Assembly: GCF_001984155.1 (NCBI RefSeq)
Contig: NZ_MTQO01000037.1
Location: 124,001-188,000 of the forward strand
Source: Actinosynnema sp. ALI-1.44
GTDB lineage: Bacteria; Actinomycetota; Actinomycetes; Mycobacteriales; Pseudonocardiaceae
Direction of reading: 5' to 3'
DNA length: 64,000 nucleotides
The position numbers were made by a program, and so were the translations under genes. Positions within the stretch are counted from its first letter, which is position 1. Each line of letters opens with the position of its first letter. The notes below the pieces were generated by a model that saw only the letters and a program-made list of their open reading frames with translations, was not told the origin of the DNA and did not search any database. Positions 962 through 13,339 of the stretch are shown piece by piece.

Positions 962-1498
962 ATGATCACGTTGCGCAGCACACTGCACCTGACCGGCCTG
1001 ACCGGCGTGACGATCGAGGACATGGTGATCGACACCGACGGCGACGGGATCGTGCTGGACGACTGCCGTGACATCACCATCTCCCGCGTGCTCGTCAACG
1101 CGTGCGGTGGTCACGGGATCCGGCTGACCAACTCGGCTCACGTGTCCATTGAGGACTGCGCGGTCTACGGCTACGACACGGGTTCGGTCGCTGCGGGGAC
1201 GTTCACGTTCCTGCACCCGCGACCGTGCGGCGGGATCAGGGTGCTCAGCGGTTCGCGCGACATCACGCTGACCTCGACGGTGATCGAGCACAGCCGCGGT
1301 CTCGTGCTGGACACAGTGGACGACGTGGTGGTGCGCGGCCTGCACATGGCCGACGTCCTCGGCGTCCCGCTGGTCGTGCGCGGCCGGGGACGCCGGGTCG
1401 ACATCGGTGACATCGACATCCTCAACGTGCTGTCAGACGTCGCGCGACCGGTACAACCAGTGCACATCCCGGCCGAACGACCACGACAGAGCGCCTAG
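962..1498 (+). pseudogene. Truncated right-handed parallel beta-helix protein fragment
   Basis: The reading frame that contains the displaced MMPL block runs straight into about 150 residues of beta-helix rungs. These show repeated short strands with D/N/G turns, for example GVTIEDMVIDTDGDGIVLDD, DITISRVLVNACGGHGI and DITLTSTVIEHS. This is the pectin-lyase-like fold seen in NosD-type and glycan-active proteins. It has no signal peptide of its own, begins abruptly at the MMPL junction, and its last ~22 codons are antisense to the 3' end of the CDP-alcohol phosphotransferase gene, so both ends look lost. An ATG at 962 with a weak upstream AAGGA could allow translation of 178 residues. I regard it as a deletion scar, not a functional gene. 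Confidence 0.55.
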
Positions 1499-2116
1499 CG
1501 CGATGCCCGTGACGATGTACGACACCGTGGCGGGCAGCAAACCGGACGCGGCGGCCACGAGCACAACTCCTTGCATCGCGGCGACGGTCTTGCGCGCCAT
1601 GCTGTGCGGCAGTGCGGCGGTCAGCCACGGCAAAGCCCAACTGGCCGCGACGAACAGGTACCGCATGGCACCGATCAGCAACACCCACGGCCCGAGGAAC
1701 TTCGCCACGAACAAGCTCAGGATGAGGATCAGGAACGCGTCCACTTCCATGTCGAACCGTGCGCCCAAAGGCGTGACGCATCCGGTCCGGCGGGCGATCT
1801 GGCCGTCGATCGCGTCGCCGACCAACGCGACTGCCGCGATCACCGCCAACAGGGTCAGGGGAACAGGCCGCCAGAACGAGTCGATCACGATGGCGGTCAC
1901 GCTGCCGACGAGCCCAGCCCGAGCCAGCGTCACCCGGTTGGCCGCGCCGACCGTCTCCGCTCCGGCACGGAACAACGCCGTCATCAGCCACCCGCCCAGC
2001 ACGACCGCGTAGGTCGCGCCGGCCAGCCACCCCTCGAAGCCCAACGGCGTGACCATGGCCAGCGCGGTTACCAGCAGTAACTGCGCTACCACCCCCACGA
2101 GGGGCTCGTAGGCCAA
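1433..2116 (-). CDS. CDP-alcohol phosphatidyltransferase family membrane protein
   Basis: An integral membrane enzyme of about 227 residues that transfers a phospho-alcohol group from a CDP-linked donor to a second alcohol. It carries the family signature D-x2-D-G-x2-A-R-x8-G-x3-D-x3-D in the stretch GDAIDGQIARR to GARFDMEVD, which supplies the metal and CDP ligands. Several hydrophobic helices surround it. The open frame extends upstream to an ATG at 2239, but that would overlap the divergent dehydrogenase gene. The TTG at 2116 is preceded by GGGAGG at good spacing, so I use it. Donor and acceptor cannot be told from sequence. Divergence by 54 bp from the 2171-6981 operon makes a role in the same pathway likely (inference). 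Confidence 0.85.
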   Translation of the reverse strand: MAYEPLVGVVAQLLLVTALAMVTPLGFEGWLAGATYAVVLGGWLMTALFRAGAETVGAANRVTLARAGLVGSVTAIVIDSFWRPVPLTLLAVIAAVALVGDAIDGQIARRTGCVTPLGARFDMEVDAFLILILSLFVAKFLGPWVLLIGAMRYLFVAASWALPWLTAALPHSMARKTVAAMQGVVLVAAASGLLPATVSYIVTGIALGALSWSFGRDVHWLYRSRDV

Positions 2117-2170
2117 CGCGGCCCTCCCACTACTTAAGGTGATCGAAAGCCTCAAGGGAGGGTAGAACGG

Positions 2171-3139
2171 ATGGAACGGGCGTTCTGGGTGCGTTCGGCT
2201 GGTCACGGCGAGATCGAACCTGCTCATGTGCATCAACACGCGTCAGACGAAGTGTTGGTTCGAACTCTTTTCAGCGGGGTGAGCCGCGGCACCGAAACCC
2301 TTGTTTTCCGCGGCGAGGTGCCGCCGAGCCAGTACACGGCGATGCGAGCGCCGTTCCAGGAGGGCGACTTCCCCGGACCGGTCAAGTACGGCTACCTGAA
2401 CGTGGGCGTGGTCGAGGACGGACCCGCGCACCTCGCAGGCAGAACGGTGTTCTGCCTCTATCCACACCAGACACGTTACGTCGTGCCGGTGACGGCGGTC
2501 ACCGTCGTGCCGGACACCGTCCCGGCGGAGCGAGCGATCCTGGCAGGCACCGTGGAGACGGCCGTGAACGCGGTGTGGGACGCCGCGCCACTGGTCGGCG
2601 ACCGGATCGCCGTCATCGGCGCTGGCATGGTCGGCGCGTCCGTCGCCAAGATCATCGCCGGTTTCCCCGCGACGAGGGTGCAACTGGTCGACTCCGACCC
2701 CGCCAAGGCCGAGGTCGCCGCGGCGCTGGGCGTCGAGTTCACCTCGCCGGAGGACGCCGAAGGCGGGTGTGACCTGGTCGTGCACGCCACCGCGTCCGAA
2801 GCGGGCCTGGCCAGGGCACTGGAACTGCTCGCCGAGGACGGCGAGGTGATCGAGCTGAGCTGGTACGGCGACCGGCGGGTGAGCGTGCCGCTCGGCGAGT
2901 GGTTCCACTCCCGGCGGTTGACCATCCGGGCCAGCCAGGTCGGGGCGGTGGCCCAGGCGCGGCGCGGCAGCCGCGGTTACGCCGACAGGCTGGCGGTCGC
3001 GATGGACCTGCTGGCCGATCCGGGTTTCGACATCCTGATCAGTGGGGAATTCCCGTTCGGCGATCTACCTGCGGTGCTGAGTTCTCTCGCGAGCGGTGAA
3101 CTACCCGGCCTTTGCCACCGTATTAGGTACGACGGTTGA
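2171..3139 (+). CDS. MDR-superfamily (zinc-type) dehydrogenase, first gene of the cyclohydrolase cluster
   Basis: A 322-residue medium-chain dehydrogenase/reductase. It has an N-terminal GroES-like domain (SGVSRGTETLVFRGEVP) and a Rossmann nucleotide-binding motif IAVIGAGMVGASVAK near residue 150. An acidic residue at the end of the second beta-strand (VDSDPAK) suggests NAD rather than NADP. The four-cysteine structural zinc lobe of alcohol dehydrogenases is absent, and the catalytic zinc ligands are not obvious, so it resembles the BchC-like branch of the family. It starts at an ATG behind AGGGAGGG. The QueD-like gene follows after 30 bp in the same direction. It probably oxidises a hydroxyl group of the pathway intermediate; the substrate is unknown. 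Confidence 0.85.
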   Translation: MERAFWVRSAGHGEIEPAHVHQHASDEVLVRTLFSGVSRGTETLVFRGEVPPSQYTAMRAPFQEGDFPGPVKYGYLNVGVVEDGPAHLAGRTVFCLYPHQTRYVVPVTAVTVVPDTVPAERAILAGTVETAVNAVWDAAPLVGDRIAVIGAGMVGASVAKIIAGFPATRVQLVDSDPAKAEVAAALGVEFTSPEDAEGGCDLVVHATASEAGLARALELLAEDGEVIELSWYGDRRVSVPLGEWFHSRRLTIRASQVGAVAQARRGSRGYADRLAVAMDLLADPGFDILISGEFPFGDLPAVLSSLASGELPGLCHRIRYDG

Positions 3140-3169
3140 CGAGTTCGAACCGAATGGGAGGGCCCCCGG

Positions 3170-3604
3170 GTGTTCAGCATCACCGTCCGCGATCACGTCA
3201 TGGTCGCCCACAGCTTCCAAGGCGAGGTCTTCGGACCCGCGCAGCGGCTGCACGGCGCGACGTTCCTCGTGGATGCCACGTTCCACCGTGCCGAGCTCGA
3301 CGACGACAACATCGTCGTCGACATCGGACTGGCCACCGAGCAGCTCAAGGACGTGCTCGCGCCGCTCAACTACCGCAACCTCGACGACGAGCCGGAGTTC
3401 AAGGGCGTCAACACCTCCACCGAGTTCCTGGCCAAGGTGATCGCGGACCGGCTGGTCGAGCGGATCGGCGACGGAAAGCTCGGCGAAGGCGCGCGTGGGC
3501 TGGCGGAGATCACCGTCACCCTGCACGAGTCGCATGTGGCGTGGGCGAGCTACCGTCGTGCCGTGGAGTCATCCCCGGAGTCATCCCCGGAGTCATCACT
3601 GTGA
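3170..3604 (+). CDS. 6-pyruvoyl/6-carboxy-tetrahydropterin synthase (QueD)-fold protein lacking the catalytic triad
   Basis: A 144-residue T-fold protein of the PTPS/QueD family. Aligned by eye to E. coli QueD, zinc ligands H14 and H28 remain, but the third (the HGH motif) is Ala30. The nucleophilic Cys of the C-x3-HGH motif is Ala24, and the Asp-His pair of LDHxxLND is Asn67-Tyr68. The pocket Glu near the C-terminus is kept ([11 protein letters not shown]). So it should bind a pterin-like or pyrimidine ligand but not use the known QueD chemistry. It starts at a GTG. The stop overlaps the next start (GTGA). The last codons consist of a 12-bp tandem repeat encoding [12 protein letters not shown] recall a conserved actinobacterial subfamily with the same HGA motif, so the loss is probably not a local accident. 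Confidence 0.85.
3565..3597 (+). repeat. 12-bp tandem repeat at the 3' end of the QueD-like gene
   Basis: GGAGTCATCCCC is repeated 2.75 times, ending three bases before the GTG of the glycosyltransferase. In frame it encodes a Ser-Pro-Glu tail. Each unit contains GGAG, so the repeat may also supply ribosome-binding sequence to the overlapping downstream start. Confidence 0.85.
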
Positions 3605-4653
3605 TCGGCTTCGTCGTTCCGGGCGACATCGACGACAGATCGGTGCCCAGCGGCGGCAACGTCTACGACCGACGGATGAGCACCGCCCTGGGCGCCAACG
3701 AGGTCGCGGTCGCGGGGACGTGGCCGACACCGGACGGCACCGCACGCCGGGAGTTGGCGAACGTCCTCGCCGGATTCGACGATGACGCCACGGTGCTGAT
3801 CGACGGGCTGGTGGCGTGTGGCGTCCCCGATGTCGTGGCCGCGCAAGCCCGGCGGTTACGCCTGGTGGTGCTGGTGCACCTGCCGCTCGCGGACGAGACC
3901 GGCATCGAACCCGACCTCGCCGCGGACCTCGACGCCCGCGAACGCCAGACGTTGCAGGCCGCGACCATGGTCATCGCGACCAGCCCGTGGGCGGCACGGC
4001 GTGTCGTGTCACACCACCGGTTGGACCCAGGCCGCGTGCACGCCGTGCCGCCGGGCACTGATCCCGCGCCGCTCGCGCTCGGCACGGACTGCGGCTCGCG
4101 GTTGCTGTGCGTGGCCGCCGTGACGCGGCGCAAGGGTCAGGACCGGCTCGTCGAGGCGCTGGCCAGCGTGCGTGACCTGCCGTTCAGCTGCGAACTCGTC
4201 GGCTCGCTGCGGCGCGACAGCGAGTTCGTGCTGCGGCTGAGCACGATGATCAAGGAACACGGGCTGGCCGACCGGGTCACGCTGGCCGGGCCGAAGACCG
4301 GCGCCGAGCTGAACGCGGCGTACGCGGCAGCGGACCTGTTCGTGCTGCCGTCCCGCACCGAGACCTACGGGATGGTCCTCACGGAGGCGCTGGCGCGGGG
4401 GATCCCGGTACTGGCCACGAACGTCAGCGCGATCCCGGAAACCGTCGGGCACGCGCCCGACGGGACCGTGCCCGGCATCCTCACCTGGCAGTTCGCTGAC
4501 TCGCTGCGCCGCTTCCTGACCGACGAGCAACTGCGCGACGCGCTGCGGGCGTCGGCACACGCCAGGCGCGCGACGCTGACCGACTGGGACACCGCGGCGC
4601 TGCACCTGCGGGATGTACTGGCAGAGCTGGAGGAACCGGCATGTCGCAGATAA
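3601..4653 (+). CDS. Glycosyltransferase family 4 (GT-B, retaining)
   Basis: A 350-residue GT-B fold glycosyltransferase. The C-terminal nucleotide-sugar domain shows the GT4 pattern: a basic residue pair in [13 protein letters not shown] and the E-x7-E motif in [17 protein letters not shown], where the donor phosphates and ribose are bound. There are no membrane helices. I chose the GTG at 3601 because it overlaps the QueD-like stop (GTGA), a pattern repeated through this operon; a longer open frame reaching back to 3136 is only the shadow of the previous gene. The 3' end overlaps the methyltransferase by 13 bp. Tight coupling implies that a sugar is added to a pathway product. Donor and acceptor are unknown. 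Confidence 0.9.
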
Positions 4654-5447
4654 GCAACAGCACGATGTACCCGGCCGAGTGGCTGTCGCTGCGCGAGGAC
4701 GCGGACGCGGCGGCCCGGTCGGACGAGCTGGCCCAGTCGCTGCGGGCGCACTTCGGCGACCGGCCCGGCCTGATCATCCGCGACCTGGGCTGCGGGATCG
4801 GCTCGATGGGGCGGTGGCTGGCCGCCCGGCTGCCCGGCCCGCAGCACTGGATCCTGCACGACCGCGACCCCGGTCTGCTGTCGCGTGCGGTGGCCGGGAT
4901 GCCGCGTGGGGTGACCGTGACCGGTGAGCTCCAGGACATCACGCGGTTACGGGTCAATGACCTGAGCGGGACGTCGCTGGTGACCGCGTCGGCACTGCTC
5001 GACCTGCTGACCGCGGAGGAACTGGCCGCGTTGGCCGAGGCGTGCGCCAAGACCCCGGTGCTGTTCGCGCTGTCGGTGGTCGGACAGGTCGAGCTGGACC
5101 CGTTCGACGAGTTCGACGACGAGGTCTCGAAGGCGTTCAACGCCCACCAGCGGCGGGTCACGCAAGGCAGGCGCCTGCTCGGGCCGGACGCCGCCGGTAC
5201 CGCGGCGGAGCTGTTCCAACGACAGGGCGCGACCGTGCACCGCAGGCCCAGCCCATGGCGGCTGGGCCGCGACGACGCCGCCCTGATCGCGGAGTGGCTG
5301 CGCGGCTGGGTGGCGGCCGCGGTGGAAGAACAGCCGGAGCTGGCCGAACACGCCGATGCCTACCTGGAACGCAGGCTCGGCGACAGCGAGCTGGCGATCG
5401 TCGTCCACCACGAGGACCTGCTCGCGCTTCCGGCGGGTGCGGCATGA
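4641..5447 (+). CDS. Class I SAM-dependent methyltransferase
   Basis: A 268-residue Rossmann-fold methyltransferase with the AdoMet motif I IRDLGCGIGSMGRWLA near residues 46-61 and an acidic ribose-binding loop (ILHDRDPGLL) after strand 2. The start ATG lies inside the end of the glycosyltransferase gene, and its stop overlaps the start of the membrane protein gene (ATGA), so all three are probably translationally coupled. Nothing in the sequence says whether O, N or C is methylated. It belongs to the same pathway by operon position (inference). Confidence 0.88.
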   Translation: MSQISNSTMYPAEWLSLREDADAAARSDELAQSLRAHFGDRPGLIIRDLGCGIGSMGRWLAARLPGPQHWILHDRDPGLLSRAVAGMPRGVTVTGELQDITRLRVNDLSGTSLVTASALLDLLTAEELAALAEACAKTPVLFALSVVGQVELDPFDEFDDEVSKAFNAHQRRVTQGRRLLGPDAAGTAAELFQRQGATVHRRPSPWRLGRDDAALIAEWLRGWVAAAVEEQPELAEHADAYLERRLGDSELAIVVHHEDLLALPAGAA

Positions 5448-6361
5448 AGAAGAACGTCTGGGCGTGGGCGAAGCTGCTGATCGGCGCGGGAATCATGGTT
5501 GCGTTGTTCCTGCAACTGGGTACCAGCAGCTTTGTGGACGGGCTGCGCGTGATCACCTTCGGCGAGGTGTTCGCGGCATTGGGGATCGGCTTGGCGACCA
5601 CTGTGCTCAGCGCGTGGCGCTGGTGCCTGGTGGCTCGCCGCCTTGGCTTGAACTTGTCGCTGTCGCGGGCGGTGCTGGACTACTACCGTGCGTTGTTCCT
5701 CAACGCGGTGCTGCCCGCGGGCGTGCTCGGTGACGTACAACGCGCGGTCGAACACGGGCAGCAGGAAGGCGACCTCGGGCGAGGCGTGCGAGCTGTTGTG
5801 CTGGAACGGATCGCGGGTCAGGCCGTGATCATCGTCGCCGGGGTGGCCGTGTTGCTGGCAGTGCCGTCGTTGGGATTGCCGCGGGACATCATCCTGATCG
5901 TCCTCGGTGTGATCGCGGTGATCGCGACGGCTTTTGTCGCCGCGCGACGCTGGGCGCGCGCCAACACCGGACTGTCCCGGACCATCGCCGACATCCGCGC
6001 GGGACTGCTCGCCCGCGACGCGTGGCCCGGAATCACGCTACTGTCGGCAGCGGCACTGGCGGGGCACATCACCCTGTTCGTCGTGGCCGCGCACGCGGTC
6101 GGGTCGACCGCGCCGATCGCGCAACTGGTGCCGCTGATGGTGCTGTCGCTGCTGGCGATGGGACTGCCGGTGAACATCGGGGGTTGGGGGCCCAGGGAAG
6201 GCGTTGCCGCGGTGGTGTTCTCAGCCGCCGGGCTGGGCGCCGCACAAGGATTGACCACAGCGGTGGTGTACGGGGTGCTGGCGCTCGTCGCGAGCCTGCC
6301 CGGTGCCGGAGTGCTGCTCCTGCGTACACCGGTGTTGCGGAGATTGGAAAAGGCACTATGA
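5444..6361 (+). CDS. Lysylphosphatidylglycerol synthase-like transmembrane protein (UPF0104/PF03706)
   Basis: A 305-residue polytopic membrane protein with about eight hydrophobic helices and the conserved family blocks: a basic loop after helix 2 (SAWRWCLVARRLGL), YRALFLNAVLPAGVLGD, and MGLPVNIGGWGPREG. This corresponds to the flippase half of MprF without the cytosolic transferase domain, the stand-alone form common in actinobacteria. Such proteins are associated with moving or modifying lipid-linked or glycolipid substrates. Its presence, with a CDP-alcohol phosphotransferase and a glycosyltransferase, suggests that the pathway product ends on or crosses the membrane (inference). ATGA overlaps at both ends. 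Confidence 0.88.
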   Translation: MKKNVWAWAKLLIGAGIMVALFLQLGTSSFVDGLRVITFGEVFAALGIGLATTVLSAWRWCLVARRLGLNLSLSRAVLDYYRALFLNAVLPAGVLGDVQRAVEHGQQEGDLGRGVRAVVLERIAGQAVIIVAGVAVLLAVPSLGLPRDIILIVLGVIAVIATAFVAARRWARANTGLSRTIADIRAGLLARDAWPGITLLSAAALAGHITLFVVAAHAVGSTAPIAQLVPLMVLSLLAMGLPVNIGGWGPREGVAAVVFSAAGLGAAQGLTTAVVYGVLALVASLPGAGVLLLRTPVLRRLEKAL

Positions 6362-6981
6362 CCGAACTTGCCGGATTCACCCGACGTGCGGCGGAAACAC
6401 GCCTGCCGACCCGCTACGGCGACTTCAACGCGGTGGGCTACCAGGACCCGACGTTCGGGCACGAGCACATGGCGCTGGTGTACGGCGACGTCACGAAAGG
6501 GCGCGATCCGCTGACCAGAGTGCACTCGGAGTGCCTGACCGGTGACGTCTTCGCGTCCACCAGGTGCGAGTGCGGGGACCAGTTGGCCGCGGCGATGCGG
6601 GCGATCGTGGCCGAGGGCGCGGGAATCCTGATCTACTTACAGGGCCATGAAGGACGTGGGATCGGCCTGCTGGCGAAGCTGAAGGCGATGCGCCTGCAGG
6701 AAGAAGGCATGGACACCGTGGACGCGAACGTGGCGCTCGGCCTGCCGGTCGACTGCCGCGACTACCAGGCGGCCGCGGACATCCTGCAGGACCTGGGAAT
6801 CCAGTCGATCCGGCTGCTGTCGAACAACCCGCACAAGGTGGAGTCACTGAGCGAGTACGGGATCAGGATCTCCGAGCAGGTGCCCCTGCTGATCGAGGTG
6901 AACGACGACAACCTGCCGTACCTGAAGGCGAAGCGGGAACGGCTCGACCACCACCTGCCCCAACTCGACGACATCCTCTGA
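6358..6981 (+). CDS. GTP cyclohydrolase II homologue with Met in place of the catalytic-loop Tyr; predicted FAPy-forming
   Basis: A 207-residue GTP cyclohydrolase II. Zinc cysteines are C59, C70 and C72 (HSECLTGDVFASTRCEC), the phosphate-binding block is GHEGRGIGL, and the C-terminal NNPHKVE block is present. The residue equivalent to Tyr105 of E. coli RibA (in KIRAYALQ) is Met111 here (KLKAMRLQ). From the literature as I recall it, the same Tyr-to-Met change in a Streptomyces coelicolor paralogue (SCO6655) stops the reaction at the formamidopyrimidine (FAPy) nucleotide. There is no fused RibB domain, no riboflavin gene is near, and the neighbours are pathway-type genes, so this is probably a dedicated paralogue. 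The start overlaps the preceding stop (ATGA). FAPy output is a prediction. Confidence 0.9.
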   Translation: MTELAGFTRRAAETRLPTRYGDFNAVGYQDPTFGHEHMALVYGDVTKGRDPLTRVHSECLTGDVFASTRCECGDQLAAAMRAIVAEGAGILIYLQGHEGRGIGLLAKLKAMRLQEEGMDTVDANVALGLPVDCRDYQAAADILQDLGIQSIRLLSNNPHKVESLSEYGIRISEQVPLLIEVNDDNLPYLKAKRERLDHHLPQLDDIL

Positions 6982-7015
6982 GCACCCGCGCCACCCTGGC
7001 GGGGGCGGCGCGGTC

Positions 7016-7699
7016 TCAGCCCAGGGCTTCGAGGACTCCGGCGAACGTCGTGACCAGACTGTCCAGGACCTTGCTTCCCTTGTCCTTGCTTGCTTTGGAC
7101 GGGCGGCCGATGACGCCGGCCGTCGTGTAGGGCGCGAGACCCAGTGTCAGCATGTGGTCGCGCTCGTCCGCCAGGTGGTCGTGATCCGCGTAGTCCGCTT
7201 TCACGACCTCCGGGTGGGCGTGCAGCAGGATCGACACTTCCAGTTCGCCCGCGTGCATGTCGCTGACCATCGGCGTCTCGATCCCGCCCGCGGTCCGCGC
7301 CTTCTGCCAGTCCGCTTCTGTGGGGAACAGGGCCATGCCGCTGGATTCCTGGACCAGATTGGACAGGACGTAGTTGCCGCCGTGCCCGTTGATCAGCACC
7401 AGTTTGTCCACCCCCGACCGGCGCAGCGAGTCCGCGACGTCCCGCACGACGGCGTACAGGGTCGGCGCCGTGATGCTCACGGTTCCCGGCCACGCCGCGT
7501 GTTCGTGGGAACAGGACATGGTGATCGGCGGCAGTTCGAACACCGGGTAGGCCGTGCTCAGCGCGCGGGCCACGGTCGACGCGATCATCGTGTCCGTGGC
7601 CAGCGGCAGGATCGGCCCGTGCTGTTCGTGGCTGCCGACGGGGAGGATCGCGACTGCCGGGTCCCGGACGTCCAGCGTGGTGTGCGACGGGAGGAACAT
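7016..7699 (-). CDS. Creatininase-family amidohydrolase (FAPy deformylase/MftE-like)
   Basis: A 227-residue metal-dependent amidohydrolase of the creatininase fold. Conserved metal and active-site blocks are PVGSHEQHGPILPLATDT (Glu, His and Asp ligands), the SHEHAAWPGT loop, INGHGGN, and DMHAGELEVS. The family includes creatininase, the mycofactocin peptidase MftE, and the archaeal ArfB enzyme that removes the formyl group from FAPy nucleotide. It is convergent with the predicted FAPy-forming cyclohydrolase (34 bp between stops), which makes a deformylase role attractive. It starts at ATG 7699, 25 bp from the divergent nucleoside hydrolase; the open frame extending to 8374 is a shadow. The role is inferred from context. 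Confidence 0.87.
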   Translation of the reverse strand: MFLPSHTTLDVRDPAVAILPVGSHEQHGPILPLATDTMIASTVARALSTAYPVFELPPITMSCSHEHAAWPGTVSITAPTLYAVVRDVADSLRRSGVDKLVLINGHGGNYVLSNLVQESSGMALFPTEADWQKARTAGGIETPMVSDMHAGELEVSILLHAHPEVVKADYADHDHLADERDHMLTLGLAPYTTAGVIGRPSKASKDKGSKVLDSLVTTFAGVLEALG

Positions 7700-7724
7700 G
7701 GCCCGCACTCTATCGTTGCCGACC

Positions 7725-8630
7725 ATGATCCCCGTGGTGCTCGACTGCGACCCCGGCCACGACGACGTGTTCGCCATGCTCCTCGCCGCCGCGCACCCGG
7801 CGATCGACCTGCGCGCGATCACGACCGTGGCGGGCAACGGCCCGCTGGACAAGGTGACCACCAACGCGCTGCGCGTCTGCGCCTTGGCGGGCATCGACGT
7901 TCCCGTCGCCGCGGGTCTCTCGCAGCCAGCGGCCGGGAACGCGCCATCCATCCACGGCGAGAGCGCGCTCGACGGCACCGACCTACCCGAACCAGCCGAC
8001 CTGCTGGCCGACGAGGACGCGGTGACCCTGACCGAGCGTTTGCTCGACAAAGCCGGGCCGGTGACCATCGTCGCGACCGGGCCGTTGACGAACGTGGCCG
8101 CGTTGCTGCGCAAACGGCCGGATCTGCGGCCACGCGTCGCGTTCATGGGCGGCAGTTGCGGTCGTGGCAACTGGACGCCGTTGGCGGAGTTCAACATCTG
8201 GGCCGACCCGGAGGCCGCGGACGTCGTGCTGTCCAGCGGCCTGGAGGTCACGATGTGCGGACTGGACGTCACCCACCAGGCCACGGCCACACCGGACGTG
8301 TTCGAGCGCCTGAGGGCGATGCGGACGCCGATCGCCGACCGCATGGGCGACCTGCTCCGGTTCTTCGCGTCCACCTACGACGAGGTGTTCGGCATGCCCG
8401 ACCCGCCGGTGCACGACCCGGTCGCGGTCGCCGCGGTCGCGGCGCCCGAGTTGCTGAGGTTCGTCGACGCCCCGATCGCCGTCGAGTTGACCGGGACGCA
8501 CACCCGTGGTGCGACGGTGGTGGATCTGCACGGTGTGACCGGGAAACCCGCCAACGCACGCGTCGCGCTGGACCTCGATCGCGCGGAGTTCTGGGATGTC
8601 ATGCTCGCCGCTGTCGAACGGCTCGGATAG
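7725..8630 (+). CDS. Inosine/uridine-preferring nucleoside hydrolase family (IUNH)
   Basis: A 301-residue hydrolase with the IUNH N-terminal calcium-binding motif DCDPGHDD at residues 7-14, the VATGPLTNVAALL block and FNIWADPEAAD near the middle. A C-terminal His-Asp (VHDPVAV) supplies the last metal ligand. The family cleaves N-glycosidic bonds of ribonucleosides. It is divergent from the creatininase-family gene with only a 25-bp gap, so the two may share control. A role in releasing a base from a nucleoside intermediate of the neighbouring cluster is possible, but ordinary nucleoside salvage is just as likely. The 3' end overlaps the MocR regulator tail to tail by 32 bp. Confidence 0.9.
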   Translation: MIPVVLDCDPGHDDVFAMLLAAAHPAIDLRAITTVAGNGPLDKVTTNALRVCALAGIDVPVAAGLSQPAAGNAPSIHGESALDGTDLPEPADLLADEDAVTLTERLLDKAGPVTIVATGPLTNVAALLRKRPDLRPRVAFMGGSCGRGNWTPLAEFNIWADPEAADVVLSSGLEVTMCGLDVTHQATATPDVFERLRAMRTPIADRMGDLLRFFASTYDEVFGMPDPPVHDPVAVAAVAAPELLRFVDAPIAVELTGTHTRGATVVDLHGVTGKPANARVALDLDRAEFWDVMLAAVERLG

Positions 8631-10092
8631 CCCGGCCGATCGTGGCGACGCCCGCGGCGATGTCGCTCGGTGTGTTGGCCGCGTAGCCGAGGATCAGGCC
8701 CGGCGGGTGCGGCCGTTGACAGTGCCAGGAAAGCGGCTGCACCTTCACGCCGTGCCGTAGCGCCGCGGCGGCCAGGTCCACATCGGAACGCGGGGTGTCC
8801 AGTGTGATCATCAGGTGCAGCCCGGCGGCGGCGCCGTGCACCACAGCACCCGGCAGGTGGGCGTGGACGGCGTCGACCATCGCGTCGCGGCGCCGGACGT
8901 GGCGCCTGCGCAGGTACCTCAGCTGTCGTTCCAGTTCGCCGGACGACATCAGCTCGGCCAGAACCAGTTGGGGCAGGGCGGCGTTGCCGAGGTCGGCGAG
9001 GCGTTTCGCGGCGATCACGGCGTCCCGGTACCTCGCCGGGACGAGCAACCAGCCGACCCGCAGCGCCGGAGCGAGCAGTTTGGACACACTGCCCGCGTAG
9101 AACACGCGCTCGGACACCATGGATCGCAGCGCGGACACGGGCGGCCGGTCGTAGCGGTGCTCGGCGTCGTAGTCGTCCTCGACGATCAGGCCGTCCCATC
9201 TCATCAGCTGGCGCCTGCGTTCGCCGTCGAGGACGACGCCGGTCGGGAACTGGTGCGCCGGGGTCATCATGACCGCGCCGACTCCGCTGTCCCGCAGGAC
9301 ATCCACGCGCAACCCGGCATCATCCACCGGAACAGGAGGGGTTTCCATGCCCGCGTTGCGCAGGTGCTGCCGTACGCCCAACGATCCCGGGTCCTCCACC
9401 GCGATCTGCGTGATGCCGTCCTCGCTCAGCACCTTGGCGACCAGACCGAGCGCTTGCGCGACACCGGCGACGATGAGGACCTCGGCCGGGTCCACCCTGA
9501 TCCCACGGGTCCGCGCCAGCCAGGTCGCCACGGCGAGCCGCAACGCCGGAGTGCCACGGGGATCGCCGTACCCGAGCGCCGCGGGCTCCACCGCGTTGAA
9601 CACCGTCCGCTCGGCACGCAGCCACGCCGAACGGGGAAACGCCGCGAGGTCGGGGACACCGGGGGAGAGGTCGAACCGCGCGGCGGCGGCGCGGAACGAG
9701 TCGAAGACGTCGTCCGCCGGGTCGGTCGCGAACACGTCCGCGGTCGACGGCGGCTGGTACGTCCGGACGGTCGGCGCCGCGACGGGCACGGCGACGACCA
9801 CGGTCCCGCCACGACCGCGACCGGCGACGTGGCCGTCCTCGACCAGGCGTTGGTAGGCCTCGGTGACCACGCCCCGCGAGACCTCCAGATCGGCCGCGAG
9901 CACCCGGGTCGCGGGCAGCCTGCTGCCCACCGGCAGCCGCCCGTCGGAGATCGCCAGCCGCAGTTGTCCGGCCAGCCACTCGGCGCGGCCGCCGGCGGGC
10001 GCGTCGGCGATGGTGAGCTGGAGGAAGTCCGACCCCCGCGTTGCGGACCCCGTTATGGACCCCTCAGCGGGGCGTGGTTTGGCCCTACTCAT
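8599..10092 (-). CDS. MocR/PdxR-type transcriptional regulator (GntR wHTH + aminotransferase-like domain)
   Basis: A 497-residue chimera. An N-terminal GntR winged helix (QLRLAISDGRLPVGSRLPAT, then ADLEVSRGVVTEAYQRL) is followed by a fold-type I aminotransferase domain. The PLP-lysine region (YAGSVSKLLAPALRVGW) and the Asp-containing block (IVEDDYDAEHRY) are intact. Proteins of this type sense PLP or an amino compound and commonly control a divergent gene. The LysE-type exporter diverges 29 bp away and is the likely target. ATG 10092 is the only sensible start. Direct repeats of GGACCCC lie just inside the 5' coding end. Confidence 0.92.
   Translation of the reverse strand: MSRAKPRPAEGSITGSATRGSDFLQLTIADAPAGGRAEWLAGQLRLAISDGRLPVGSRLPATRVLAADLEVSRGVVTEAYQRLVEDGHVAGRGRGGTVVVAVPVAAPTVRTYQPPSTADVFATDPADDVFDSFRAAAARFDLSPGVPDLAAFPRSAWLRAERTVFNAVEPAALGYGDPRGTPALRLAVATWLARTRGIRVDPAEVLIVAGVAQALGLVAKVLSEDGITQIAVEDPGSLGVRQHLRNAGMETPPVPVDDAGLRVDVLRDSGVGAVMMTPAHQFPTGVVLDGERRRQLMRWDGLIVEDDYDAEHRYDRPPVSALRSMVSERVFYAGSVSKLLAPALRVGWLLVPARYRDAVIAAKRLADLGNAALPQLVLAELMSSGELERQLRYLRRRHVRRRDAMVDAVHAHLPGAVVHGAAAGLHLMITLDTPRSDVDLAAAALRHGVKVQPLSWHCQRPHPPGLILGYAANTPSDIAAGVATIGRAIRAVRQRRA
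10045..10063. promoter_or_regulatory. Direct repeat GGACCCC x2, possible MocR operator
   Basis: Two GGACCCC heptamers start 12 bp apart (10045-10051 and 10057-10063), inside the first codons of the MocR gene and 59 bp upstream of the exporter start. MocR proteins often bind direct repeats near a divergent promoter. This is weak evidence on its own. Confidence 0.25.
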
Positions 10093-10121
10093 CGGGCCAT
10101 TGTGGCAGCACAGTGAACGCC

Positions 10122-10736
10122 ATGAGCATCGCTTTCCTGGTCACGACCCTCATCGCCGTGGCGACGCCCGGCACGGGCGTGCTCTACACACTGGCCACGG
10201 GCCTGGCCCGGGGCCACCGGGCGAGCGTGATCGCGGCGTTCGGCTGCACACTGGGCATCGTCCCGCACATGGTCGCCACCATCACCGGCCTCGCCGCGTT
10301 GCTGCACACCAGCGCGCTGGCGTTCGAGCTCGTCAAGTACCTCGGCGTGGCCTACCTGGTCTACATGGCCTGGAGCACCCTGCGGGACAAGGGCGCGCTC
10401 GTGGTCGAGCAGGCGCAGACGCAGCCCGTGTCCGCCACGAAGGTGATCGTCTCGGCGGTCCTGCTGAACCTGTTGAACCCGAAGCTGACGATCTTCTTCG
10501 TGGCGTTCCTGCCGCAGTTCGTCAGCGTGGGCGACCCGGGGCAGCTCTGGCGGATGGTCGAGCTGAGCCTGGTGTTCATGCTGCTGACGTTCGTGGTGTT
10601 CGCGCTGTACGGGATCTTCGCGGCGGCCATGCGCGACCACGTGATCTCACGGCCCCGCGTGATGGCGTGGCTGCGAAGGTTCTTCGCCGTGTCGTTCGTC
10701 GCGCTCGGTGCGAAGCTCGCGTTCACCCAGGTGTGA
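10122..10736 (+). CDS. LysE/RhtB-family amino-acid exporter
   Basis: A 204-residue membrane protein with six predicted helices and the usual LysE family length. It has the N-terminal TPGTGVLYTLATGLARG block, with T where many members have G in the GPG motif, and a mid-region LLNPKLTIFFVAFLPQFV, the family NPK-x2-FF signature. It exports amino acids or related small amines. It is divergently transcribed from a MocR-type sensor, a classical arrangement for inducer-controlled efflux. It starts at ATG 10122. It ends two bases before the convergent DJ-1 gene. Confidence 0.92.
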   Translation: MSIAFLVTTLIAVATPGTGVLYTLATGLARGHRASVIAAFGCTLGIVPHMVATITGLAALLHTSALAFELVKYLGVAYLVYMAWSTLRDKGALVVEQAQTQPVSATKVIVSAVLLNLLNPKLTIFFVAFLPQFVSVGDPGQLWRMVELSLVFMLLTFVVFALYGIFAAAMRDHVISRPRVMAWLRRFFAVSFVALGAKLAFTQV

Positions 10737-10738
10737 GG

Positions 10739-11332
10739 TCAGCTGCTGCGCCAGACGCTGCCGCGGCGCTCGTACTCCAGCACCGTCTCCACCCGCTGGG
10801 CCTGCTTGGCGCCGACGAACCGTTCGACGAGCCACAGCGCCACTTCGAGACCGGAGGTGATGCCGCCGCCGGTGATCAACGTCCTGTCGTCGACAACACG
10901 GGCGTTGACCAGCTTGGCGCCCTGCGCCTGGAGTTCGGCCTTCGCCCCGGCGTGCGTCGTGGCCGGGCGGCCCCGGGTGATGCCTGCCGCGGACAACACC
11001 ATCACACCGGTGCAGATCCCGACCGGCAACGCCTTGACGGCCGCCAACGTGGCAAGGAAGCCCTTGTCCGCGATGAGCCTGTGCACCCCGGGACCGGTGC
11101 GGTCGGTGTACCCGCCGCCGGGGACGATCAGGATGTCCGCGTCCTGCGGCGACCACCCGTTCGGCACCTCGACCCGGGTACCGTGCATACAGGTCACCGT
11201 GCCCGGTGGACCCGTGGTCACCAGCTTCGAGGTGAACCCCGCGCCCATCTTCCCCGCCAGCCCGAGCACTTCGACCGGCGCGATGAAGTCCTGTTCCTCC
11301 ACACCGTCGAAGAGCAGCGTCTGCACCCGCAC
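10739..11332 (-). CDS. DJ-1/PfpI-family protein (isonitrile-hydratase-like)
   Basis: A 197-residue class I glutamine-amidotransferase-like protein. The nucleophile elbow with the reactive cysteine is GICTGVMVLSAAG, and a conserved Thr-His follows (ATTHAGAKAEL). The strand EEQDFIAPVEVLG at the N-terminus is typical of the ThiJ/isonitrile hydratase branch. The GTG at 11332 has AAGGAG seven bases upstream, so I prefer it to the longer frame starting at 11362. No helix-turn-helix domain is fused. The substrate is unknown. Confidence 0.87.
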   Translation of the reverse strand: MRVQTLLFDGVEEQDFIAPVEVLGLAGKMGAGFTSKLVTTGPPGTVTCMHGTRVEVPNGWSPQDADILIVPGGGYTDRTGPGVHRLIADKGFLATLAAVKALPVGICTGVMVLSAAGITRGRPATTHAGAKAELQAQGAKLVNARVVDDRTLITGGGITSGLEVALWLVERFVGAKQAQRVETVLEYERRGSVWRSS

Positions 11333-11426
11333 TGGATCACTCCTTCGCCTCGTCCACCCCACAGGTCGGCTGGCGCGAACCGATGGTTCCCGGCGCGGGG
11401 ACCTGATCCAGTGCGGGCATGTGCCG

Positions 11427-12596
11427 CTACCAGGTCAACGGCAGCGATTCCACGCCGTGGATGAACGAGTACGACCGGAACGGCACCTCGTCGTAGTCCA
11501 CGGCCAGTGCCAGCTTCGGGAACCGGCTCAGCAGTGCGGGGTAGGCGATCTTCATCTCCATCCGGGCGAGCGGTGCGCCGAGGCAGTGGTGCAGGCCGTG
11601 CCCGAACGCCATGTGGGCGGAGATCTTGCGGGTGATGTCGAACGTCTGCAGGTCCTCACCCAGCGCCGGGTCGCGGTTGGCCGACGGCAGCGAGCACATC
11701 ACGATGTCCCCGGCGGCGATCCGTTGCCCGGACAGCTCCACGTCCTCGATCGCGGTGCGGAACACTCCCGTGTGGACGATCGAGAGGTAGCGCAGCATCT
11801 CCTCGATGGCCTCGTCGACGCGTTCCCCGTTGCGCACGGCCGCCGCTTGTTCTGGGTGGCGCAGCAACAGCAGTGTGCCCATGGCGAGCATGTTCGACGT
11901 TGTCTCGTGCCCGGCCAGCAGCAGCAGGTCGGCGACTCCGGTCAGTTCGCGGTTGTCGACGTCGTCGCCGTGGTCGCGGACCAGCATGCCGATCATGTCG
12001 TCGCCCGGGTTCCTGCGGGCCTCTTCGACGAGCTTGGCCATGTAGGCGCGGGACGCCTCCATCGCCGCCACCCGCTCGCTCATGTCGCGGCCCATGTCCA
12101 GCCGGACCTTCGCTGTCTCCTGGAACTCGTCGCGGTGCTCGTACGGCACGCCCAGCAGTTCGCAGATCACCAGCGACGGGATCGGCAGTGCGAACGTCGG
12201 CACCAGGTCGGCGGGCGGGCCCGCCTGCTCCAGCGCGTCGAGGTGTTCGGTGACGATCGCTTCGATCCGCGGTTGCAGCCTGCGGATGCGCCGGACGGTG
12301 AACTCGGGTGTGAGCATCCTGCGCAGCCGGGTGTGCTCGGGCGCGTCGTAGCCGAGCAGGAACCCGCTGCGGCCCTTGTTCCCTTCGCTGAACGGGCCGA
12401 TCGGGGCGTTGCTGAACCTGCCGGACCCGCTGAGCACCTCCCTGATGTCGCTGTAGCGCGTGACCAACCAGGCTTCCCCGCCGATCGCCAGTTCCACCCG
12501 CGTGACCGGCTGCTCCTCCCGCAGCCTGATCAGTTCGGGAACCGGGGCGAACTTGTCCCGCCTCGCCTGGATCGGGATTTCGGGCGCTTGTGTCAT
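11427..12596 (-). CDS. Cytochrome P450
   Basis: A 389-residue soluble bacterial P450. It carries the I-helix oxygen-activation motif AGHETTSNM, the K-helix E-x-x-R (EEMLR) and the haem loop FGHGLHHCLGAPLARME with the Cys ligand. Length and motifs fit CYP105/107-like actinobacterial enzymes that hydroxylate small lipophilic or macrolide-like substrates. ATG 12596 follows GGAGGGG; the frame extending to 12638 has no better signal. No ferredoxin gene is adjacent, so electrons must come from elsewhere. A TetR regulator diverges across an 89-bp intergenic region. Confidence 0.95.
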   Translation of the reverse strand: MTQAPEIPIQARRDKFAPVPELIRLREEQPVTRVELAIGGEAWLVTRYSDIREVLSGSGRFSNAPIGPFSEGNKGRSGFLLGYDAPEHTRLRRMLTPEFTVRRIRRLQPRIEAIVTEHLDALEQAGPPADLVPTFALPIPSLVICELLGVPYEHRDEFQETAKVRLDMGRDMSERVAAMEASRAYMAKLVEEARRNPGDDMIGMLVRDHGDDVDNRELTGVADLLLLAGHETTSNMLAMGTLLLLRHPEQAAAVRNGERVDEAIEEMLRYLSIVHTGVFRTAIEDVELSGQRIAAGDIVMCSLPSANRDPALGEDLQTFDITRKISAHMAFGHGLHHCLGAPLARMEMKIAYPALLSRFPKLALAVDYDEVPFRSYSFIHGVESLPLTW

Positions 12597-12685
12597 GACC
12601 CCTCCGATAAGTGATATGGACCTATCGTTTACAGCCACGCTAGCACAAGTGGTAGTTGGCTATCAGTCTGTTAGCGTTGCCGGAT
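12597..12685. promoter_or_regulatory. Divergent P450/TetR promoter region with CGATA...TATCG dyad
   Basis: The 89-bp gap contains CGATA and TATCG arms around a 13-bp spacer (about 12604-12626) and a second CTATC element near 12660. The sequence is visibly AT-richer than its surroundings. It is the likely binding region for the TetR protein encoded on its right. Confidence 0.45.
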
Positions 12686-13339
12686 ATGAGCGGCCCATCG
12701 CAGCGCCCGTTGCGGGTGGACGCGGCGCGCAACGCGGAACTGATCGTGCGCGCGGCTTGGCGCGCCTTCGGGGAGTCGGGCGCGGAGGTCCCGCTCGAGG
12801 AGATCGCCAGGCGCGCGGGAGTCGGCGTCGCGACTCTCTACCGGCGCTTCCCCAGCAAGAGCGACCTGCTCCTGGCGATCATGGAATGGCGATACGCGGA
12901 CTCTATCCAGCCCGCGGTGGCCAGCGCGCTCGTCGATGAGGACCCCTGGCGGGCAGTGGTCACTGCCCTTGAGGCCGCGCTGACCGTCATGGGGCAGGCC
13001 CACCCGGTGATCAAGGCGGTGCACGACCCCCGGTCGATGCTGGTCGGGCTGAAGAACCGGTTCCTCAACGACTTCACCACCATCGTGGGACGCGCTCAGG
13101 CCGCCGGGGTGGTCCGCCCGGACCTGCGCCCGAGCGACCTGCCGATGGTGGTGTACATGCTGATCAGCACGGTGCGCGCGACCACCGACCCGGCCGACGG
13201 CTGGCGCCGTCCGCTCGCTCTGCTGCTGGCCGGGTTGCGGTCGGGCTCGGACGTCCCGCTACCCGACATCTCGGCGGTGGACGTCATGCCTTGGGGCCCG
13301 GCCAAGGGTGGGGACTGCTCGGACCACGGCTCTCGGTGA
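12686..13339 (+). CDS. TetR-family transcriptional regulator
   Basis: A 217-residue TetR repressor. The helix-turn-helix is LEEIARRAGVGVATLYRRF at residues ~33-51, preceded by AAWRAFGESGAEV, and a C-terminal ligand domain follows. It lies divergent to the cytochrome P450, which it probably represses. It starts at ATG 12686. Its 3' end overlaps the convergent acyl-CoA ligase gene by 56 bp, so its last ~18 codons are under antisense constraint. Confidence 0.92.
   Translation: MSGPSQRPLRVDAARNAELIVRAAWRAFGESGAEVPLEEIARRAGVGVATLYRRFPSKSDLLLAIMEWRYADSIQPAVASALVDEDPWRAVVTALEAALTVMGQAHPVIKAVHDPRSMLVGLKNRFLNDFTTIVGRAQAAGVVRPDLRPSDLPMVVYMLISTVRATTDPADGWRRPLALLLAGLRSGSDVPLPDISAVDVMPWGPAKGGDCSDHGSR

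Follow-up and report, generated by a model that had tools for sequence, protein, structure and literature searches.

A gene cluster that is real and conserved across Actinomycetes was identified in a 64-kb stretch of Actinosynnema sp. ALI-1.44 (contig NZ_MTQO01000037.1; hereafter the window, meaning the whole stretch analyzed), whose host genome measures 11.7 Mb. The preliminary description of this DNA had placed nine genes in the cluster, and eight of them belong to it: a CDP-alcohol transferase, a dehydrogenase, a protein of the 6-pyruvoyltetrahydropterin synthase (PTPS) fold, a GT4 glycosyltransferase, a methyltransferase, an LPG_synthase_TM (LPG_TM) membrane protein, a paralogue of GTP cyclohydrolase II (GCHII), and a creatininase-family amidohydrolase. 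We consider it fairly probable that they encode a conserved actinobacterial pathway in which the cyclohydrolase stops at a formamidopyrimidine (FAPy) nucleotide, the creatininase-family protein deformylates it, and the product is then decorated and linked to the membrane. The opening of GTP in two steps by two separate enzymes is well supported as a prediction. The FAPy-type cyclohydrolase and creatininase deformylase proposed earlier for the window agree with a Tyr-to-Met switch in the former, with the co-distribution of the two, and with the precedent of BrbF (PMC9478397).

Matches to the PTPS-like protein came from 43 of 296 genomes and 21 of 115 genera of a class sample, from 99 of 298 genomes (25 of 67 genera) of an order sample, and from 30 of 396 genomes (13 of 246 genera) of a phylum sample, where ten matches lay down at 33-38% identity. 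All 44 class matches were used (43 fetched regions and the window), along with further matches hand-picked for diversity, namely 55 of 96 from the order and 5 of 11 from the phylum, and with 80 named loci that were the closest of more than 537, mostly Streptomyces. In total, 177 non-redundant loci were scored, of which 147 were full, with no less than 6 kb of sequence to either side of the PTPS-like gene. The dehydrogenase occurred in 146 of the 147 full loci, in 134 of them within 500 bp of the PTPS-like gene, and the GT4 in 145, always within that distance. LPG_TM, CDP-alcohol transferase, and methyltransferase followed with 141, 133, and 127 full loci, respectively, while GCHII, creatininase, and RibD_C occurred in 126, 95, and 62. 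Among the 86 full loci from genome sampling, outside the named set, these families were present in 85 (dehydrogenase), 84 (GT4), 81 (LPG_TM), 72 (CDP-alcohol transferase), 67 (methyltransferase), 67 (GCHII), 36 (creatininase), and 53 (RibD_C). Of the cluster families, L260 and L261, remote loci from within the same phylum, yielded the dehydrogenase, PTPS-like protein, GT4, and RibD_C and no others, and these four therefore seem to make up a minimal core. Among named relatives, the cluster closest to that of the window was the one in Kibdelosporangium philippinense (L077), at 84% over 789 columns of concatenated proteins. The comparison across actinobacteria did not refute the co-occurrence on which the preliminary description depended, as eight genes recur.

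The window cyclohydrolase (6358..6981, plus strand; PF00925, GTP_cyclohydro2, 230 bits) carries Met111 (codon 6688-6690) in the position aligned to Tyr105 of E. coli RibA, a residue tied to completing deformylation; the Tyr that would mark full RibA function is thus replaced. Spoonamore and co-workers reportedly found in 2006 that SCO6655 of S. coelicolor stops at FAPy owing to the same Met. The zinc-cysteine pattern of GCHII, C[LVM]TGD.{5}[RHC]C.CG, was retained in 150 of 151 scored copies, and Tyr was read in both further GCHII detected in the window's genome. After exclusion of four duplicate loci and of loci with a PTPS match score of 100 or less, the switch residue across the 177 loci was Met in 84, Tyr in 36, His in 18, Leu in 3, and Gln in 2, and 34 loci, some of them cut by contig ends, had no in-cluster cyclohydrolase. 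In a tree of 105 cyclohydrolase sequences, which took in 30 of the 107 non-Tyr cluster enzymes (one in four Streptomyces loci was kept for tree building), the cluster enzymes with and without Tyr fell on separate branches, the non-Tyr group having a support of 85 and no star, and Tyr was lost once. The history is therefore chiefly one replacement, in which a FAPy-type enzyme together with a creatininase took the place of a complete cyclohydrolase. GCHII also occurred outside the cluster in 33 of 36 genomes searched, the cluster copy being the sole match in G033, G221, and G273. For 23 genomes that lack a cluster cyclohydrolase, every readable cyclohydrolase locus was of the Tyr type (24 of 25 new loci and five fetched earlier); L302 had no readable motif, and three partial matches yielded no locus.

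Two further observations concern this enzyme family. Eight Streptomyces-like loci (L318-L320 and L322-L326) hold a second GCHII that falls in the Tyr-cluster branch by profile score, with Tyr read in L318, L319, and L324; it is unlinked to the cluster and adjoins a RibD that includes a deaminase and shows the unusual motif PC.{8}PC. At L101, L104, L206, and L207, the cyclohydrolase is followed by a related open reading frame (ORF) of some 280-300 aa, and the L101 copy is an inositol-monophosphatase-family protein and candidate 5'-phosphatase.

The creatininase-family protein (PF02633, Creatininase, 200 bits) was located at 7016-7699 on the minus strand, a corrected position. Within the fetched stretches, a creatininase was present in all 107 non-Tyr loci, in 0 of 36 Tyr loci, and in 0 of the 34 loci without an in-cluster cyclohydrolase. 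The motifs EQHG..TD and [DE].H.GE.E[TVA]S were kept in 107 of 107 cluster copies and NGHGGN in 99 of 107; these are metal-ligand motifs of creatininase-fold enzymes. On a tree of the dehydrogenase, PTPS-like, and GT4 proteins, cyclohydrolase and creatininase changed jointly six times, and none of the 123 rows showed a mismatch; six loci truncated at contig ends had been omitted by hand. Five independent pairs were supported, all in the same direction, while the CDP-alcohol transferase, LPG_TM, and methyltransferase showed no difference in an average of 3.7 to 4.1 of these 5 pairs. In a group formed by L034, L041, and L042, the cyclohydrolase and the creatininase lie at opposite ends of the cluster, and the joint losses of L050 and L073 fall in the branch that contains this group. 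These later joint losses are partly independent support for the pairing. BrbF of Sinorhizobium, first annotated as a creatininase, is described in PMC9478397 as a proven FAPy formamidase whose FAPy-forming partner its authors state to be unknown. The equation of the window protein with archaeal ArfB was not upheld, since the ArfB model NF033501 gave 39.5 bits against a cut-off of 180.

All nine genes of the preliminary description were found at or near the positions it gave, and the couplings it listed were exact. The coupled run comprises six genes on the plus strand, beginning with a medium-chain dehydrogenase of BchC-like similarity (2171..3139), which is followed after a 30-bp gap by the PTPS-like gene (start 3170). 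The latter overlaps the GT4 gene by GTGA at 3601-3604, the GT4 and methyltransferase genes overlap by 13 bp (4641-4653), and ATGA overlaps join the methyltransferase to LPG_TM (5444-5447) and LPG_TM to the cyclohydrolase (6358-6361), whose start was corrected to ATG 6358. The CDP-alcohol transferase gene (1433..2239, minus strand) diverges from the head of the run, and because the dehydrogenase begins at 2171, its true start is probably internal to that ORF. The creatininase gene converges on the tail.

The PTPS/QueD-fold protein (3170..3604, plus strand; PF01242, PTPS) is the orthologue of SCO6650, with a phmmer value of 1.7e-67 to its structure 3d7j. When aligned with E. coli QueD, Cys27 is replaced by Ala, Asp70-His71 by Asn-Tyr, and His33 by Ala, and Glu110 is kept. 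In QueD, Cys27 and Asp70-His71 are catalytic and His33 is the third zinc His, and PTPS-fold proteins bind the 2-amino-4-oxo pattern through a Glu. The patterns C..LHG and LHGH were found in 0 of 177 loci; the remote loci L260 and L261, scored apart, keep LHGH or THGH. The QueD model TIGR03367 gave 36.5 bits for the window protein against a cut-off of 89, and the SCO6650 structure paper is said to have already reported the catalytic triad and zinc as missing. With its catalytic residues replaced, a reading of the protein as an ordinary pterin enzyme is not supported. It may instead bind, or perform a different chemistry on, a pterin-like or diaminopyrimidine substrate.

The remaining genes of the cluster would act after the ring opening. 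For the CDP-alcohol transferase (PF01066, CDP-OH_P_transf, 43 bits), the motif D..DG..AR.{8}G...D...D was found in 156 of 157 scored copies. The GT4 (3601..4653, plus strand; PF00534, Glycos_transf_1, 97 bits) has MshA as its best curated kin, far below the cut-off, and its PDB kin include MshA and phosphatidylinositol mannosyltransferases. The flippase-like LPG_TM protein (5444..6361, plus strand) matched PF03706 with 112 bits and TIGR00374 with 28.1 bits, the latter below cut-off. For the dehydrogenase, both PF00107 (ADH_zinc_N; 26.9 bits, cut-off 31.8) and TIGR01202 (46 bits) remained below their cut-offs, and the Rossmann pattern G.G..G was present in 174 of 174 copies. The methyltransferase (4641..5447, plus strand) matched PF13649 (Methyltransf_25) with 29.1 bits; its structure predicted from the single sequence had a mean pLDDT of 42.9 and was not used. 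Taken together, the CDP-alcohol transferase, GT4, and flippase-like protein appear to resemble the logic of glycolipid routes such as that of phosphatidylinositol mannosides, with a pyrimidine or pterin replacing inositol. Judged from these families, the end product is probably sugar-bearing and membrane-linked.

An ordinary secondary-metabolite cluster, whose product would be a nucleoside or pteridine that is soluble and not attached to a lipid, is a possible though rather doubtful alternative for these genes. It would fit the 8-azaguanine work of PMC7109123, where the same diaminopyrimidine made by E. coli RibA leads to 8-azaguanosine monophosphate. An MFS transporter group near 8 of 68 loci also agrees with it; this group came from a scan of unassigned ORFs at 68 chosen loci, for which 40 groups were listed and seven recurrent families named. 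Linkage of the genes across many genera, the CDP-alcohol transferase motif that is intact in nearly every scored copy, and the flippase-like protein, which 141 of 147 full loci contain, nevertheless speak against it.

Gene numbers of S. coelicolor were matched to the cluster genes by synteny, which places SCO6652 at the methyltransferase. In mycelium, its log2 values were 0.8 at 24 h, 4.3 at 48 h, and 4.1 at 72 h (PMC3610822), a rise of about 17- to 20-fold at 48 and 72 h. SCO6655 is listed in PMC2853524 among genes whose expression opposes the predicted flux, most of which are up in stationary phase. Expression in S. coelicolor points to differentiation.

RibD_C was searched for in the fetched stretch, about 10 kb on either side, and its totals admit weaker PTPS matches than the 177-locus count. 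A stand-alone RibD_C lay near 36 of 37 Tyr loci, or 35 of 36 once L263, whose cluster is incomplete, is set aside, and near 22 of 37 loci without a cyclohydrolase. The deaminase PC-PC pattern occurred in 0 of 33 listed cluster copies. Among curated models, TIGR01508, the archaeal diaminopyrimidine reductase, scored highest with the copies of L037 and L225, though below cut-off, and the general RibD_C model with those of L067 and L260. The stand-alone RibD_C of the Tyr clusters points to the deformylated diaminopyrimidine ribotide as the branch point, and reduction before deamination would keep the 2-amino-4-oxo pattern. The search gave no stand-alone RibD_C reductase anywhere in the 64-kb window. 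Streptomyces-like genomes had seemed to hold a cluster-type RibD_C away from the cluster, a reading that was rejected because the ORFs in question carry the deaminase motif.

Several observations weigh against the proposed pathway. Since Tyr was lost a single time on the cyclohydrolase tree, the contrast between 107 and 36 loci is mostly shared ancestry, and the sign test over the five independent pairs gave p 0.0625. Cyclohydrolase and creatininase adjoin in many loci, so one deletion could account for the loss of both genes in some cases. An unlinked creatininase of 52-61% identity, with no other cluster gene on its stretch, was detected in G851 (L303), G760 (L304), G653 (L305), G705 (L306 and L307, two partial pieces), and G300 (L195), and the nine cyclohydrolases II found in those five genomes were all of the Tyr type. 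The first four of these genomes carry Tyr clusters, and a whole-genome creatininase search covering 33 of the 36 Tyr genomes found an unlinked copy in 4. With such copies in Tyr-only genomes, another role of the enzyme is possible. RibD_C lay near only 16 of 107 non-Tyr loci, and the best RibD_C match in the window's genome carries the deaminase motif; the reduction step is therefore only putative here.

Part of this evidence would suit a creatininase that acts on another substrate, for example as an MftE-like peptidase, and that is linked to the non-Tyr cyclohydrolase by shared ancestry only. The best curated match of the window protein is indeed MftE (TIGR03964, 130 bits), and the single origin of the non-Tyr enzyme and the five genomes with an unlinked copy beside Tyr-type cyclohydrolases only agree with such a role. 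The match nevertheless stays below the MftE cut-off of 172, the six joint changes came without a mismatch, and BrbF is a creatininase-family protein that performs FAPy deformylation (PMC9478397), which leaves this explanation unlikely. Quite improbable is a second riboflavin supply, in which cyclohydrolase and creatininase would feed ordinary riboflavin synthesis beside a separate adjoining pathway: BrbF is required for riboflavin in S. meliloti (PMC9478397) and a RibD_C reductase lies near many clusters, but no RibB, RibH, or RibE is among the seven named recurrent extra families (most of the 40 groups being unnamed), 33 of 36 genomes searched hold a GCHII elsewhere, and cyclohydrolase and creatininase were lost jointly while dehydrogenase, PTPS-like protein, and GT4 remained linked.

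In the pathway that we favor, built on FAPy formation and creatininase deformylation, the cyclohydrolase is predicted from the residue switch to open GTP to the FAPy nucleotide without deformylating it. The creatininase-family protein would then remove formate, giving 2,5-diamino-6-ribosylamino-4(3H)-pyrimidinone 5'-phosphate (DARoPP). Other lineages would reach DARoPP with a single cyclohydrolase of the Tyr type, which belongs to another family branch, and the nearby stand-alone RibD_C probably reduces the ribosyl group with the 2-amino group kept. From the third step on, the dehydrogenase, the degenerate PTPS-fold protein, and the GT4, a core that hardly varies between loci, may alter the side chain of the 2-amino-4-oxo pyrimidine; the same core would perhaps close a pterin-like ring, and a sugar would be added. 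The methyltransferase would methylate an intermediate, the CDP-alcohol transferase may form a phosphodiester between an intermediate and a lipid or phospho-alcohol, and the LPG_TM protein would move the product across the membrane.

A more specific version, a development-linked route to a membrane-anchored, glycosylated, pterin-like lipid made without GTP cyclohydrolase I, is improbable as a whole scheme. In it, the creatininase would deformylate FAPy, RibD_C would reduce the ribosyl group and the dehydrogenase re-oxidise it, and the freed 5-amino group would close the pterin ring inside the degenerate PTPS-fold protein. Glycosylation, methylation, lipid attachment by the CDP-alcohol transferase, and outward flipping would follow.

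The ninth gene, a nucleoside hydrolase (7725..8630, plus strand, start corrected to ATG 7725; PF01156, IU_nuc_hydro, 321 bits), diverges from the creatininase and is a neighbour only. It had been counted as a cluster member, a claim that was rejected because it lay near the cluster in only 2 of 124 loci, those of the window and of Kibdelosporangium philippinense. A beta-helix ORF at 752-1498 was likewise rejected, being present, among the matches listed, only in the window and L077. Downstream, at 8599-13339, the window encodes a GntR-aminotransferase (MocR-type) regulator, a LysE translocator, a DJ-1/PfpI protein, a cytochrome P450, and a TetR regulator. At other loci, a protein of about 600 aa lies near 13 of the 68 scanned (L037 at 6048-7883 and 12 similar loci), and its L037 copy is a weak Sulfatase-family match.

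If the favored pathway is true, a function would be given to a cluster that occurs in a third of the sampled order genomes and in many Streptomyces, and two partly studied orphans, SCO6650 and SCO6655, would gain a pathway. It would then be clear that in bacteria a FAPy-stopping cyclohydrolase and a creatininase-family deformylase also work together for purposes other than riboflavin synthesis, and the route would lead to a glycosylated, membrane-linked pyrimidine or pterin, probably a new one, that is formed in the course of differentiation. A description of the pathway or its product was not found in the literature searched, outside which most subscription papers fell, so absence from print is not shown. 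The cluster itself is partly studied already, since the SCO6650 structure 3d7j is solved and SCO6655 biochemistry was published in 2006, and the first two steps have precedents elsewhere.

Among these precedents, archaeal GTP cyclohydrolase III (ArfA) and ArfB carry out the same two reactions as proposed here, from GTP to the FAPy nucleotide and on to its deformylation. In contrast to the archaeal pair, the first enzyme here is a GCHII, and the creatininase matches the ArfB model weakly (39.5 vs. 180 bits). BrbF shares the creatininase annotation and the same intermediate, a likeness of annotation and reaction (PMC9478397); whereas BrbF serves riboflavin, the window pair sits in another gene set. 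With QueD and 6-pyruvoyltetrahydropterin synthase, the PTPS-like protein has the family profile PF01242 and the Glu110 equivalent in common, while it differs by the loss of the catalytic Cys, the Asp-His pair, and the third zinc His. The archaeal 2,5-diamino-6-ribosylaminopyrimidinone 5'-phosphate reductase (TIGR01508) is the best match for two of the four scanned cluster reductases; all four fall below the cut-off, however, and the window is without such a reductase.

Another close counterpart is SCO6650-SCO6655 of S. coelicolor, in which SCO6650 is the solved orthologue (3d7j) of the PTPS-like protein and SCO6655 is reportedly a FAPy-forming GCHII. Most Streptomyces loci have the gene order PTPS, GT4, methyltransferase, LPG_TM, creatininase, cyclohydrolase, which fits the six successive SCO numbers. 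The window differs in having its creatininase gene on the far side of the cyclohydrolase and in the tighter packing of its operon.

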